Of a DNA stretch of 25,254 nucleotides, positions 3,617 to 6,861 are shown one piece after another. The DNA lies in IMG/VR virus record IMGVR_UViG_3300030101_002866, positions 1-25,254 of that record; one strand, written 5' to 3'. The notes under the pieces were generated by a model. The model did not search any database. It was not told the origin of the DNA and saw only the letters and a program-made list of their open reading frames with translations. Position numbers and translations under genes: made by a program. The DNA comes from a virus. How positions within the stretch are numbered: the stretch's first letter is position 1; the number at the start of each line of letters is the position of its first letter.

Positions 3617-3642
3617 GAGCAGTGTCTTTGAAGACACCGCTC
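3617..3642 (-). repeat. Spacer hairpin with palindrome copy 2
   Basis: GTGTCTTTGAAGACAC (3622-3637) extended by GAGC/GCTC arms, giving an ~11-bp stem with one mismatch. It sits about 15 nt upstream of the ATG at 3602 and just after the stop of the amidotransferase fusion gene. On the minus strand no U-run follows, so it is not a simple terminator. The flanks (ATTAATCAG upstream, ACTGCTCATAAATC downstream) match copy 3 closely. No CUGAUGA...GAAA core is present, so it is not a ribozyme. Confidence 0.75.
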
Positions 3643-3657
3643 TGATTAATATTTATT

Positions 3658-4725
3658 TTAACAATACTCGCTATTGATTTCATCTTTGGTATACTCCGCT
3701 CCACATCCTACACATTGGTAGTTATCTGATATGCCATCGTGTACCAAGTCATTGAAACAAGCAGTGCAGTATGGAGAACTGCTCTCCACATCACAATCAA
3801 AGTCTAACTCTACTTGTCTGTCATCGACTACGATTGGCTCATCGAAAGTGAATGGTCGGTAGCTATACTTTGGTCTTTGGTATTCGTAAGACTCAGTATG
3901 ATTCTTACCATTCCATCTACCCTCTTCTTGTGGATTGAAATAAACCCAACACATCAACTCTCTGTCTTTGACGATGATAGGAATTTGCTTTCGCTTGTAC
4001 CATCTTGGATGTCCTTCTAACCCATCTATGCTCTTTAGATTGGCATCGCTGACTTTGAACACATCAACTTTTACATTGTGTCCTTTGCCTTTCTTTTCGA
4101 ATAGGTAAGGTAGTCCATCAACTACCAAAGGATACTTGTCCTTTGTCTTTCCATTACCGAGATGTTTTGATGAGGTAAGGTAAGTGTAGTAGTTACCAAA
4201 CCCTTTCTTCAGTGTTCCATACACTGCGATAAGATTGTCTTGTAACACATTACCTTTAGAGTACCACACTCCATCTTTCTTTACCCAATTCAACTTGTTG
4301 TAGATTTGGAATGTTCTGTTGCGAGTATTGATAGATACAAACCTTGCTTCAAACTTCTGTAGCTGACTCGCCCAAGTATGTCGTGGTGTCTTGCCAAGTC
4401 TGATAGCTAAGTCTTCAGTGTCTGTCATTCGCTCACTGCCATATCCTTGTGCAGTTCCATTCATCATCAACAACTCATCTTTGTTGTATCCACATCTGAA
4501 TGGATGAGTATTCTCTTTACAGATTCTACCAATGGTTGCATACCTAAAGTGTGCAATGTATGGTCTGTCTGTATTGAGCAACTGATACTCTTTTGATTTG
4601 TGATAGCTGACCTTGAAAGTGTCGAGCCATACGATTCCCAATCCATGAGGATTGATTTTTGCGGATGTTTTAAGAACTTCTGTCGGCACATCCTTGCCTT
4701 TCTGTTTAATAATAATGATACACAT
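3658..4725 (-). CDS. Class-II glutamine amidotransferase / gamma-glutamylcyclotransferase / zinc-ribbon fusion (355 aa)
   Basis: Domain 1 (about residues 1-160) reads as an Ntn-type glutamine amidotransferase. Cys2 directly follows Met1 (MCIIIIKQKG), with NPHGLGIVW, IAHFRYATIG around Arg61 and MNGTAQGYG...TDTEDL, equivalent to the HNG...SDTE segment. Domain 2 (about 164-262) is AIG2/GGCT-like: AVYGTLKKG at 168-175, KYPLVVDGLPYL, then IDGLEGHPRWYKR with candidate catalytic Glu237. Domain 3 is a C-terminal zinc ribbon, Cys320-x2-Cys323 and Cys338-x2-Cys341. Both enzyme types act on gamma-glutamyl/amide bonds. Together with the amidoligase nearby they match the amidoligase-linked phage gene sets described by the Aravind group; substrate unknown. 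Confidence 0.8.
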   Translation of the reverse strand: MCIIIIKQKGKDVPTEVLKTSAKINPHGLGIVWLDTFKVSYHKSKEYQLLNTDRPYIAHFRYATIGRICKENTHPFRCGYNKDELLMMNGTAQGYGSERMTDTEDLAIRLGKTPRHTWASQLQKFEARFVSINTRNRTFQIYNKLNWVKKDGVWYSKGNVLQDNLIAVYGTLKKGFGNYYTYLTSSKHLGNGKTKDKYPLVVDGLPYLFEKKGKGHNVKVDVFKVSDANLKSIDGLEGHPRWYKRKQIPIIVKDRELMCWVYFNPQEEGRWNGKNHTESYEYQRPKYSYRPFTFDEPIVVDDRQVELDFDCDVESSSPYCTACFNDLVHDGISDNYQCVGCGAEYTKDEINSEYC

Positions 4726-4740
4726 AGTGTTTCGATTTAT

Positions 4741-4770
4741 GTAGCAGTGTCTTTGAAGACACAGAACTAC
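4741..4770 (-). repeat. Leader hairpin with palindrome copy 3
   Basis: GTGTCTTTGAAGACAC at 4747-4762, framed by GTAG/CTAC arms (4741-4744 and 4767-4770). It lies in the leader between the promoter at 4791-4822 and the ATG at 4725. Sequence on both sides is nearly the same as around copy 2 (ATTAATCAG ... ACTGCT(A)CATAAATC), so the two spacers share ancestry. No ribozyme core is present. Confidence 0.75.
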
Positions 4771-4832: not shown

Positions 4833-4994
4833 CTATCTACTGACAACTGCAGTAAATTTTTCTCGAAGAATCCACTTGTACTTTCCGATGTTCTCGTTGT
4901 ACACTCTGTCGATTGCTTCCCATTTCGTATAAGCAGGTACGACTTTGATTTGTCGCCCTGCATACCTGACCTTAAAGTATTTCTGTCTTTCCAT
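4833..4994 (-). CDS. Small basic hypothetical protein (53 aa)
   Basis: ATG 4994 overlaps the TAA of the upstream gene by one base (TAATG), and the frame runs to TAG at 4833-4835. The product MERQKYFKVRYAGRQIKVVP...KYKWILREKFTAVVSR is Lys/Arg-rich with alternating hydrophobics, suggesting a small beta-alpha domain. It was chosen over an overlapping reading in another frame because of the start/stop coupling and its composition. Function unknown. Confidence 0.65.
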   Translation of the reverse strand: MERQKYFKVRYAGRQIKVVPAYTKWEAIDRVYNENIGKYKWILREKFTAVVSR

Positions 4995-5344
4995 TACTTC
5001 TCGTTTTGATTAACAACTTTGCCGTCTACCATTCTCTCAACTCCGATTATCTTATGTCCCTTTCGACACATATAGCTATACCAATTCTCGAAATGCTTTT
5101 CGTTGTTAAAGTCTTTGACATTGGTTCCATAGTTACCATACACAGATTTAATTGTGATGCAGTATGTTACTTTCTCTTGCGGTTTGTAGTCCAACTTGAA
5201 CTGCTCCATCTTTTCGTGGATATTCTTACCGCTATAGTCCTTGTAGTTACAAGGAAAGTCTACAAGTTTGCTATTAAAGTTTGAAGAGTAAACTTGTGTA
5301 AATGATTTGACTGCTTCATCAGTCCATTCGAATTTAGTTTCCAT
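4994..5344 (-). CDS. Hypothetical 116-aa protein downstream of a hammerhead ribozyme
   Basis: The start is ATG 5344 (METKFEWTDEAVKSFTQVYS); a longer in-frame reading would pass through the ribozyme at 5364-5427 and is rejected. The middle contains QEKVTYCITIKSVYGNYG and the end has FENWYSYMCRKGHKIIGVER. It is soluble. No family recognised. If the ribozyme cleaves, its mRNA would begin with a 25-nt leader carrying a 5'-hydroxyl. Confidence 0.68.
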   Translation of the reverse strand: METKFEWTDEAVKSFTQVYSSNFNSKLVDFPCNYKDYSGKNIHEKMEQFKLDYKPQEKVTYCITIKSVYGNYGTNVKDFNNEKHFENWYSYMCRKGHKIIGVERMVDGKVVNQNEK

Positions 5345-5363
5345 ATTTTTGTTTTTAATGTTT

Positions 5364-5427
5364 GACATAGAGAGCAGTGTCTTTGAAGACACCACCCTTT
5401 CGTTCATTGAGAACTCATCAGTATGCC
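5364..5427 (-). ncRNA. Type I hammerhead ribozyme (HHR3), palindrome copy 4 as stem III
   Basis: Read on the minus strand from 5427: stem I strand GGCAUA, core CUGAUGA (5421-5415), stem II GUUC-UCAAU-GAAC (perfect 4 bp), core GAAA (5401-5398), a long stem III in which GGGUGGUGUCUU pairs through AAGACACUGCUCU around a CA loop (13 bp counting A15.1-U16.1, with three G-U pairs), C17, then UAUGUC pairing back to GGCAUA (6 bp, one G-U). All invariant core nucleotides are present. Predicted cleavage is after C17, between 5370 and 5369. The 5' end overlaps the TAG of the TM-protein gene and cleavage would lie 25 nt before ATG 5344. Confidence 0.85.
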
Positions 5428-5648
5428 TACGCTCTATCTTCTTTCCACACTGCGATATTTATGAGTAGTAAAAACCAACCAATTACTAAACAAAATATAC
5501 TCGTTGCTGAGGCATAAGTGAACTCAACGAAACTAAAATACTCTGCATTGTTTTTCCATATGTCAATTAGAACTCTAAGAGCCATTGAATAAACGAATAG
5601 TGTTACGATGTTAAGTGTTACATTTTGAATGTTGTTAAATGTCTTCAT
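5427..5648 (-). CDS. Two-TM membrane protein (73 aa)
   Basis: Two hydrophobic helices are visible: about residues 9-30 (VTLNIVTLFVYSMALRVLID) and 46-68 (ASATSIFCLVIGWFLLLINI), separated by a short polar loop NNAEYFSFVE and ending in charged WKEDRA. It is likely an inner-membrane protein. It sits between the amidoligase gene and HHR3, with HHR2 in its 5' leader. Function unknown; it could anchor or assist an envelope-acting pathway encoded by its neighbours. Confidence 0.68.
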   Translation of the reverse strand: MKTFNNIQNVTLNIVTLFVYSMALRVLIDIWKNNAEYFSFVEFTYASATSIFCLVIGWFLLLINIAVWKEDRA

Positions 5649-5672: not shown

Positions 5673-5724
5673 TCTGTTTCGACCTTTCGGTCATCATCAG
5701 GATAGGCACACACCTATCGACAGA
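5673..5724 (-). ncRNA. Type III hammerhead ribozyme (HHR2)
   Basis: Minus strand from 5724: stem III strand UCUG, U16.1, C17, then stem I GAUAGG-UGUGUG-CCUAUC (6 bp), core CUGAUGA (5700-5694), one extra U, stem II GACC-GAAA-GGUC (4 bp, GAAA tetraloop), core GAAA (5680-5677), and CAGA closing stem III with UCUG. Predicted cleavage is between 5719 and 5718, after GUC. Stem III is open, so the ribozyme body would stay on the 70-nt leader of the TM-protein gene (ATG 5648). The only departure from the textbook fold is one unpaired base between A9 and stem II. Confidence 0.85.
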
Positions 5725-5760
5725 AAGCAGTTTTACATCTTGCTTAGGATGAGATAGAAC

Positions 5761-6759
5761 TCAGAAATAAAACTCTTCTTTGAACTTTCTTACATCAGTG
5801 TATTCGTTTGGTGTGTAACCTCTCTTGTAACACCCTCTACGACCACCAAACTGATAGGTTAACTCTCTATCATTACTCCACCATCCCTCAAACCATCCGA
5901 CCATCTCTAAGTCCATCTTACTACCATTGATGACTTTCTGCATCTTCTTAGCTAAAGCAATAGTCTTTGCAACTTTCTCAGCATCGTTGTTGAACATCGA
6001 TAATAAGATTGGCTTTACTGCATTACAGAAATGGTGTAGTGATGAATTTTGCTTGTTCACTGCGAAATCAATCAACTGATAAAAGAACTCGTATCTGCGA
6101 ATCGTTTGCTTCACTGATGTGAATCTTGATGGAACTCTGAACTCTACAACTCCATCGCCATCTAAAGTTTTGTAGTTAGCAATCGTGTACTTTGTACTCC
6201 ACTCTGCAGATGTGTCCATAGTGATGTTACCTCTGCAAAAGTAATTGTTCACTCTGTGTCTGTAGATGGCATAAACTAAACCACTGAACTTCTTCATTCT
6301 GTCAGATAACTCTCTACCACTCATATCCTTAACTCCCAATGTAATGTGACCACCACATTTTCTGTTAGATGGGCTGAACTCATCGTTAATTATTTTCTTA
6401 GCTTGGTGGAACATATTGAACACTTTCGTTCTCCACATTGATTTGTCTACCAATGGTAAGATGTGAGTAACTGCCTCAGCACCACAACTACCATCGTGTT
6501 CAAATCCACATAACAGAGGATACTCTTGAACTGCACTCCTATGAAATCTGTTCTTCTCGAACTCCATTCCGATTGTGAATATACTTGAAAAATCATCAGC
6601 CACATTTACTCTTGCACTACTCGGTAGACCATTGATGTCCACTGCTTCTGCTTTGTTCAGTTTGTATGGATGTGGCTTACTTCCATAGCTTGAGATTCTA
6701 CCTCTTGAAGACTCGTTGTGAATCTCGAACTGAACTCCTTGTTGATTTAAATTTCTCAT
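5761..6759 (-). CDS. Putative COOH-NH2 amidoligase (glutamine-synthetase-like fold), 332 aa
   Basis: Signature segments in order: TIGMEFEKNR (Glu66/Glu68 region), CGFEHDGSCGAEAVTHILPL at 84-103, KCGGHITLG at 134-142 and DGVVEFRVPSR near residues 200-212. The set GxExE, DGSxxxEAVT, CGxHhxxG and VEFR is what is seen in the ATP-dependent amidoligases with a GS-like fold that join amines to carboxylates. Those enzymes are known to occur beside GAT-II and GGCT/AIG2 proteins, as here. The substrate could be a peptide, the cell wall or a protein tail. Flanked 5' by HHR1 and 3' by HHR2. Confidence 0.78.
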   Translation of the reverse strand: MRNLNQQGVQFEIHNESSRGRISSYGSKPHPYKLNKAEAVDINGLPSSARVNVADDFSSIFTIGMEFEKNRFHRSAVQEYPLLCGFEHDGSCGAEAVTHILPLVDKSMWRTKVFNMFHQAKKIINDEFSPSNRKCGGHITLGVKDMSGRELSDRMKKFSGLVYAIYRHRVNNYFCRGNITMDTSAEWSTKYTIANYKTLDGDGVVEFRVPSRFTSVKQTIRRYEFFYQLIDFAVNKQNSSLHHFCNAVKPILLSMFNNDAEKVAKTIALAKKMQKVINGSKMDLEMVGWFEGWWSNDRELTYQFGGRRGCYKRGYTPNEYTDVRKFKEEFYF

Positions 6760-6783
6760 TTTAAATTTAATTTTTGTTGGTTT

Positions 6784-6835
6784 TCTGTTTCGTCCTTTCG
6801 GTACTCATCAGCACAGACACTCATCTGTGGACAGA
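6784..6835 (-). ncRNA. Type III hammerhead ribozyme (HHR1)
   Basis: Minus strand from 6835: stem III strand UCUG, U16.1, C17, stem I CACAG-AUGAGUGU-CUGUG (5 bp), core CUGAUGA (6811-6805), stem II GUACC-GAAA-GGAC (four pairs with one bulged A), core GAAA (6791-6788), then CAGA pairing with UCUG. Predicted cleavage is between 6830 and 6829 after GUC, 70 nt upstream of the amidoligase ATG at 6759. From CUGAUGA to the closing CAGA it matches HHR2 at nearly every position, and the one stem II change differs together with its partner, while the stem I sequences differ. This is the pattern expected of two functional relatives. Confidence 0.85.
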
Positions 6836-6861
6836 GGATAGTGTCTTTGAAGACACTACCC
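6836..6861 (-). repeat. Hairpin with palindrome copy 5, abutting HHR1
   Basis: GTGTCTTTGAAGACAC at 6841-6856 extended to a 12-bp stem (GGAUA/UACCC side with one G-U pair). It ends exactly where the stem III strand of HHR1 begins. On the minus strand it is preceded by CAAAGGGTAG, close to the CGAAAGGGTGG of HHR3, suggesting it derives from the same type I stem III. After HHR1 cleavage it would lie a few bases from the new 3' end of the upstream mRNA. Confidence 0.8.

Follow-up and report, generated by a model that had tools for sequence, protein, structure and literature searches.

A hammerhead ribozyme with a variant junction and an abutting pseudoknot at a probable transcript-processing site in a podovirus operon

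Genes and RNA features of the locus

The window analysed here is the whole stretch of DNA, a 25,254-base virus record in which GroEL and portal genes are present. Its TerL is 74% identical to that of a podovirus from Manatee Spring and 45% identical to those of Flavobacterium phages, and the source is a podovirus related to phages of Bacteroidota; no hammerhead was found in the nearest named phage, MW202828. One leftward operon of the window contains three hammerhead ribozymes, two of type III and one of type I, among the following features:

6836-6861, minus strand, 11-bp hairpin GGGUAGUGUCUUCAAAGACACUAUCC adjoining the second hammerhead (fold prediction)
6784-6835, minus strand, second type III hammerhead, its stem II interrupted by a one-base bulge (covariance model; predicted cut 6830/6829)
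5761-6759, minus strand, gene for a 332-aa protein between the two type III hammerheads (open reading frame; glutamine-synthetase-like or carboxylate-amine ligase fold suggested)
5725-5751, minus strand, H-type pseudoknot abutting stem III (stem 1, CAUC 5751-5748 with GAUG 5739-5736; stem 2, AAGCA 5745-5741 with UGCUU 5729-5725)
5673-5724, minus strand, type III hammerhead ribozyme (core pattern, scanner and covariance-model match)
5693, minus strand, unpaired U at position 9a, separating A9 from stem II (covariance-model alignment, single insertion)
5427-5648, minus strand, gene for a small two-TM protein downstream of the 5724-5673 hammerhead, with 24 nt spacing (open reading frame; TM segments read by eye)
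5364-5427, minus strand, type I hammerhead, with the GTGTCTTCAAAGACAC palindrome forming its stem III as a 12-bp hairpin (scanner; z -3.7)
4994-5344, minus strand, gene following the type I hammerhead (inferred start 5344, in the frame of the open reading frame 4994-5407)
4747-4762, minus strand, palindrome hairpin before the GGACT gene, without a hammerhead (palindrome scan)
3658-4725, leftward, gene for a GGACT-domain protein (domain match)
3622-3637, minus strand, palindrome hairpin after the GGACT gene, without a hammerhead (palindrome scan; relatives carry a hammerhead there)

The preliminary description of this DNA had placed a type III hammerhead on the minus strand at 5673-5724, in the leader of the TM-protein gene. 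Its class, strand, coordinates and helix order were all borne out by the sequence and the model match, and the leader position was confirmed, 24 nt ahead of ATG 5648. That description was incomplete rather than wrong, having overlooked the second type III copy, the type I copy and the abutting pseudoknot.

The 332-aa protein had no match in Pfam or PHROGs. In a Foldseek search its AlphaFold model (pLDDT 73, pTM 0.80) weakly matched glutamine synthetases and YbdK (best E 2.6e-3), which suggests an amidoligase-like enzyme beside the GGACT protein, a name to be taken as a lead. Its gene, hereafter the flanked gene, sits in a conserved cluster with the GGACT gene. A synteny comparison revealed relatives of the two-TM protein gene in five contigs (L002, L003, L006, L065 and L090), and a protein scan with the TM protein as query revealed no relative.

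The second type III hammerhead (6835-6784) likewise lies 24 nt ahead of a start codon, ATG 6759, and the same site is occupied in L090. The type I hammerhead (5427-5364) has a predicted cut at 5370/5369, before ATG 5344. L088, L090 and L123 retain it, and there the changes in both stems II and III are paired, with stem II going from GTTC/GAAC to GGGT/ACCC and one stem III pair deleted on both strands. The 16-bp palindrome GTGTCTTCAAAGACAC was found at 8 places in the window (1696, 3622, 4747, 5377, 6841, 7734, 9312 and 19551; 0-1 mismatches, better strand), where 0.25 matches were expected. Since some copies lie inside genes (groEL, terL), it may serve as a DNA site in addition to forming a hairpin in RNA. 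At 3622 the hammerhead present in relatives appears to have been lost and the hairpin retained.

Structure of the hammerhead at 5724-5673

Reading the minus strand from 5724, UCUGU (5724-5720) pairs with ACAGA (5677-5673) to form a stem III of 5 bp, counting A15.1-U16.1. C5719 follows, then the 6-bp stem I, in which GAUAGG (5718-5713) and CCUAUC (5706-5701) enclose the loop UGUGUG. Beyond CUGAUGA and one unpaired U, GACC (5692-5689) and GGUC (5684-5681) form a 4-bp stem II around a GAAA loop, and GAA leads back into stem III. Stem I, the CUGAUGA core and the GAAA-capped stem II are thus present as previously described. The core carries C3 U4 G5 A6 N7 G8 A9 and G12 A13 A14, the A15.1-U16.1 pair, and at H17 a base other than G. 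As H17 is C5719, cleavage is predicted between 5719 and 5718, the same placement as before. Stem III is open and stems I and II are loop-capped, as is characteristic of type III. Stem II does not rest directly on A9 and G12, because U5693 intervenes; this single unpaired U, noted earlier as the only oddity, was confirmed and is not unique, as it recurs in 17 distinct ribozymes. In the two loops of a candidate loop I-loop II tertiary contact, the loop I motif UGNGUR and a purine-rich loop II are conserved across relatives, although the scan pattern itself fixed most of loop I. The window's loop I resembles the UGUGCU-type loop of sTRSV.

Detection and comparison with Rfam

A relaxed hammerhead scanner gave 2 matches in the real window (the 5724-5673 and type I copies), compared with 17 matches in 200 shuffled windows. 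When a covariance model was trained on 38 canonical sequences, all from other phages and none from the window, it matched exactly two sites there: 5724-5673 (66.8 bits, E 5.9e-16) and 6835-6784 (64.4 bits, E 2.5e-15). This supplies the covariance-model check that the preliminary description had proposed. A chance fold, or a DNA-level repeat without RNA function, could draw on the scanner's background of about 0.09 matches per shuffled window; it is already refuted by comparison and has practically no probability left, given this E value, strong covariation across phages and a fixed place before start codons.

Upon scanning the whole window, the Rfam model Hammerhead_3 (RF00008) gave no match to 5724-5673, even at E 10. 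With only 131 bases as the target, the site scored 33.0 bits (E 6.6e-6), below the gathering score of 48.5 bits. A canonical phage relative, L013, which shares the window's stem I, also fell short (45.4 against 48.5 bits), which indicates that the cut-off excludes this phage group. At gathering, Rfam reported no type III hammerhead in eight relatives that do contain them; the Rfam models and cut-offs therefore miss most of the group. In the L013 phage contig, Rfam also placed a DUF805b RNA (3733-3765, 42.7 bits) 530 bases downstream of the hammerhead. L046, a viral contig, carries seven hammerheads (six type I, one type III) within about 8 kb, one of which passes the Rfam cut-off.

Covariation among relatives

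Five relatives picked by protein alone carry type III hammerheads, and in three of them (L002, L003 and L006) the ribozyme lies directly 3' of the flanked gene. Among the matches listed, a hammerhead was found just 3' of this same glutamine-synthetase-like gene in 29 relatives. Viral contigs were scanned with the pattern TGTC N6 TGNGTG N6 CTGATGA, which occurred in at least 119 stretches; gene order marks many of these contigs as relatives. As this pattern fixes no stem I letters, stem I pairing is a result and not a filter: all six positions pair in 87 of 98 distinct viral matches (among the matches listed), compared with 10 of 104 from bacterial and archaeal contigs. The sequence matches thus mark the hammerhead group as strongly viral. 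Similar type III hammerheads were observed in contigs binned as Parcubacteria, Nanosynbacter, Saccharibacteria, Wolfebacteria and Patescibacteria (L129, L160, L164, L174 and L206), which are possibly phages of those hosts or misbinned phage contigs.

Covariation was measured in alignments of whole ribozymes. In the canonical set (38 relatives), 98.4% of helix cells were paired and the covariation was 0.828, against at most 0.14 with the partners slid; in the 9a set (14 relatives), the values were 99.1% and 0.940, against at most 0.17. Taking all model matches, the 131 distinct type III rows (among the matches listed) were 96.7% paired with a covariation of 0.821 in an alignment that was itself fitted to the model. 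The six-position stem I test is the unbiased one, because the canonical and 9a sets were chosen by a scanner that demands pairing.

The nearest relative, L090, has a flanked protein 77% identical to that of the window and carries its hammerhead between the flanked gene and the TM gene, with A at position 17. At this same site stem I reads TGGTAG/CTACCA where the window has GATAGG/CCTATC, and both stem III and the core are conserved, which is the kind of compensatory stem I change that had been put forward as a check. The preliminary description had also held that uncompensated changes in the stems of relatives would speak against a ribozyme. For stems I and III the comparison with L090 showed the reverse; stem II is less regular and is mismatched at 10.1/11.1, as U.U in L090 and as A.A in L065, each of which forms a recurrent class. 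Across the covariation sets and at the L090 site, the three helices around the core are kept by compensatory change. Judged by its sequence, 5724-5673 is a genuine type III hammerhead with a variant junction, for which cleavage is predicted.

Junction variants

The hammerheads fell into junction classes, and the identity of base 17 goes with the class. Among the matches listed, 70 have the canonical G10.1-C11.1 pair (C17 in 62, A17 in 3), 27 have a U.U mismatch (A17 in 24), 13 have an A.A mismatch (C17 or U17), 17 distinct hammerheads carry the 9a insertion (all C17, mostly with a 5-bp stem II), and 3 carry an A6a insertion. The A6a core, CUGAAUGA, was seen in L040 (5089-5138) and L078 (6176-6225 and 8710-8761). 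By locus, 24 of 29 hammerheads after the flanked gene are canonical with C17 and 13 of 14 after the GGACT gene are U.U or A.A (among the matches listed). The classes are real at these loci, but the contrast between them is biased, since most of the contigs came from a scan whose pattern demanded C17.

It was the stem I pattern that brought out the general 9a class. In that type III sample, and among the matches listed, all 16 sequences with a 5-bp stem II also have the insertion; of those with 4 bp, 68 lack it and 4, including the window's, carry it. The association is strong when shared ancestry is ignored (Fisher 3e-14). The combination of a 9a U with a 4-bp stem II therefore accounts for 4 of 89 distinct sequences in this sample (among the matches listed), with three stem II types, the window's being unique. 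An exact scan for the window's stem II with the 9a U gave no match elsewhere, and this exact junction is thus rare. The coupling of the insertion to a 5-bp stem II amounts to a natural experiment on hammerhead geometry.

These variants bear on whether the ribozyme might be slow or dying, a hammerhead by descent whose core is spoiled by the extra U and a loose stem II and which is kept as a leader hairpin. Near-core insertions (A6a, C2a/b) were reported to reduce activity elsewhere, A6a being weakly active (PMC3088659), two further hairpin sites in the window (3622 and 4747) have no hammerhead, and the exact stem II of 5724-5673 is unique. Stem II may indeed be loosely constrained here, since L090 has the U.U mismatch. 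However, every pair and core base of 5724-5673 is intact, and the 9a U occurs in 17 distinct sequences (among the matches listed) with stems I-III covarying in the 14 aligned, which argues that the 9a junction is under selection. We consider such decay unlikely. Because U5693 is a recurrent natural variant, and active core variants exist in published collections, it gives no ground for exclusion. The U10.1.U11.1 mismatches and the A6a insertion were already noted in PMC3088659; in its main text we came across no 9a insertion linked to a stem II of 5 bp. The four junction types would presumably cut at different speeds, and the cutting speed may be tuned by the junction.

Start codons, hairpins and the pseudoknot family

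The position of the hammerheads was highly uniform. An ORF start lies 15-35 nt downstream in 105 of 128 classified hammerheads (about 82%; among the matches listed), against 8.9% of random points; in the window the spacing is 24 nt for both type III copies. On the other side, a strong hairpin lies directly 5' of stem III in 63 of 86 (73%; among the matches listed), compared with 9 of 86 at a control position 60 bases upstream and 7 of 86 in shuffled sequence. At 6835-6784 this abutting structure is the GTGTCTTCAAAGACAC hairpin, and in the type I copy it is stem III itself. In both arrangements the upstream RNA would, after cutting, end a few bases past a hairpin. We also considered the abutting hairpins as intrinsic terminators and rejected this, as most have no T run and a terminator scan lists none at 6861-6836 or 5751-5725.

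At 5724-5673 the abutting structure is the pseudoknot, whose short helices are joined by CU, A and UAAAAC in 5' to 3' order. The scan pattern CCTNAGCANGN5AAACTGCT occurred in at least 120 stretches. Stem 1 changes in pairs (GGAC/GTCC in L002, AGAC/GTCT in L003, TATC/GATA in L055); at least 3 contiguous stem 1 pairs are present in 142 of 142 copies, one pair being fixed by the pattern, and the covariation is 0.479, against at most 0.14 with the partners slid (both among the matches listed). The family CCUNAGCANGNNNNNAAACUGCU, present in the window, in loci L235-L314 and in others, was observed in at least 120 viral contigs. A single stretch can hold as many as 4 copies, which lie directly behind stop codons, ahead of tRNAs or start codons. 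Where an ORF ends close by on the upstream side, its distance to the motif is mostly 8-14 nt; in 17 cases, in other phages, a tRNA begins 2-14 nt (mostly 4-8) downstream, and a hammerhead core follows in 7, including the window and L090 (all among the matches listed). The pseudoknot end lies 5-6 nt before the hammerhead cut. Rfam gave no match to the pseudoknot at the places tested, no description of the family was found in the open-access literature, and blastn gave no useful match to the hosts of the phages that bear it. A widespread phage pseudoknot is thus exposed, and the surrounding architecture and this family are more surprising than the hammerhead itself.

The adjoining pseudoknot raises the alternative of a regulated switch, in which the pseudoknot, or pairing of UCAUC with the GAUGA of the core, gates cutting in response to a ligand, a protein or the speed of transcription. 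The pseudoknot is a compact, covarying fold next to stem III, with a stem 1 strand able to pair with core bases; in an 88-nt context, the predicted minimum-energy fold makes this UCAUC-GAUGA pairing and leaves stem III open, in a program that cannot draw pseudoknots. In most relatives, however, unrelated plain hairpins fill the same slot, and most phages with the pseudoknot have it without a hammerhead (among the matches listed). The pairing with the core would moreover be lost in L002, where the strand is GGAC. A switch of this kind is accordingly rather improbable. Because other phages keep the fold without any hammerhead, the pseudoknot or hairpin and the hammerhead may have separate roles.

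Proposed role in transcript processing

From its sequence and setting, we consider it probable that the hammerhead processes transcripts of the leftward operon into separate mRNAs with structured ends. A long operon transcript would be made, and the ribozyme would fold and cut after C5719 in the cell. The upstream message, from the glutamine-synthetase-like gene, would end in the pseudoknot plus UCUGUC with a 2',3'-cyclic phosphate, and the downstream message, from the TM-protein gene, would have a 5'-OH end followed by the two hairpins of stems I and II, its start codon lying 24 nt past the ribozyme. Together with the hammerheads at 6835-6784 and 5427-5364, it would divide the operon into individual messages. 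Their structured ends may slow exonucleases, the upstream fold protecting the 3' end, and may allow each gene its own level. The processing of phage transcripts by tandem hammerheads was proposed and partly shown in PMC3088659, where long transcripts with such hammerheads on either side of phage genes were processed in vitro and in E. coli. Against this reading stand the competing UCAUC-GAUGA pairing predicted in the 88-nt context, the rarity of a 9a U with a 4-bp stem II, the U.U mismatch in stem II of L090, the shortness of the pseudoknot helices, and the occurrence of the hairpin or pseudoknot on its own in other phages.

More tentatively, and with somewhat less than an even chance, this could be one form of a general, uncatalogued way of making phage mRNA ends, in which a compact fold (a hairpin or the CCUNAGCA...AAACUGCU pseudoknot) lies upstream of a cutter that is either a hammerhead or a tRNA cut by RNase P. 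The speed of the hammerhead would be set for each gene by junction variants (9a, and U.U or A.A at 10.1/11.1) linked to the cleavage-site bases. What hammerheads do in phages is treated in the literature as an open question (PMC6155905, PMC3088659). The hammerhead set offers a concrete, testable picture, with a fixed start-codon distance, a structured upstream cap and conserved sites beside one gene.

Comparison with known systems

Retrozymes and viroid-like circular RNAs also have paired type III hammerheads, 0.6-1 kb apart. By analogy, the two type III copies could release the intervening gene (5719-6829) for ligation into a circle: they have the same orientation, lie about 1.1 kb apart and share identical stem III strands, and L057, L064, L084 and L086 have a similar spacing. 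In contrast to those RNAs, the window's pair flanks a protein gene in a dsDNA phage, with no sign of circles, and the differing stems I and II mean that the unit is not a repeat bounded by near-identical hammerheads. The third copy, next door, is of type I, many relatives have a single hammerhead at the flanked gene, and circles were sought and not found for similar arrays (PMC3088659). We regard a circle as very improbable.

Theta (HDV-like) ribozymes beside tRNAs in gut phages (PMC10879173) are alike in being self-cleaving ribozymes in phage RNA processing; they belong to a different ribozyme class, and here the link to tRNAs is only through the pseudoknot family that precedes tRNA genes. 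The type III hammerheads of RF00008 from plant satellite RNAs, for example sTRSV, share the core, the stem order, the UH cleavage site and a 4-bp stem II with a purine tetraloop. The window's copy differs in the extra U (9a) between A9 and stem II, scores below the gathering score, and belongs to the operon of a DNA phage, where a start codon follows after 24 nt. In setting there is a likeness to the clustered hammerheads that Perreault et al. 2011 (PMC3088659) described in phages and prophages, in which several hammerheads flank single phage genes and were proposed to cut long transcripts; in the main text of that paper we came across neither a fixed spacing to start codons nor a hairpin or pseudoknot abutting the cut. 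Phage hammerheads are thus known, and the junction variants and the capped-cut architecture look new.
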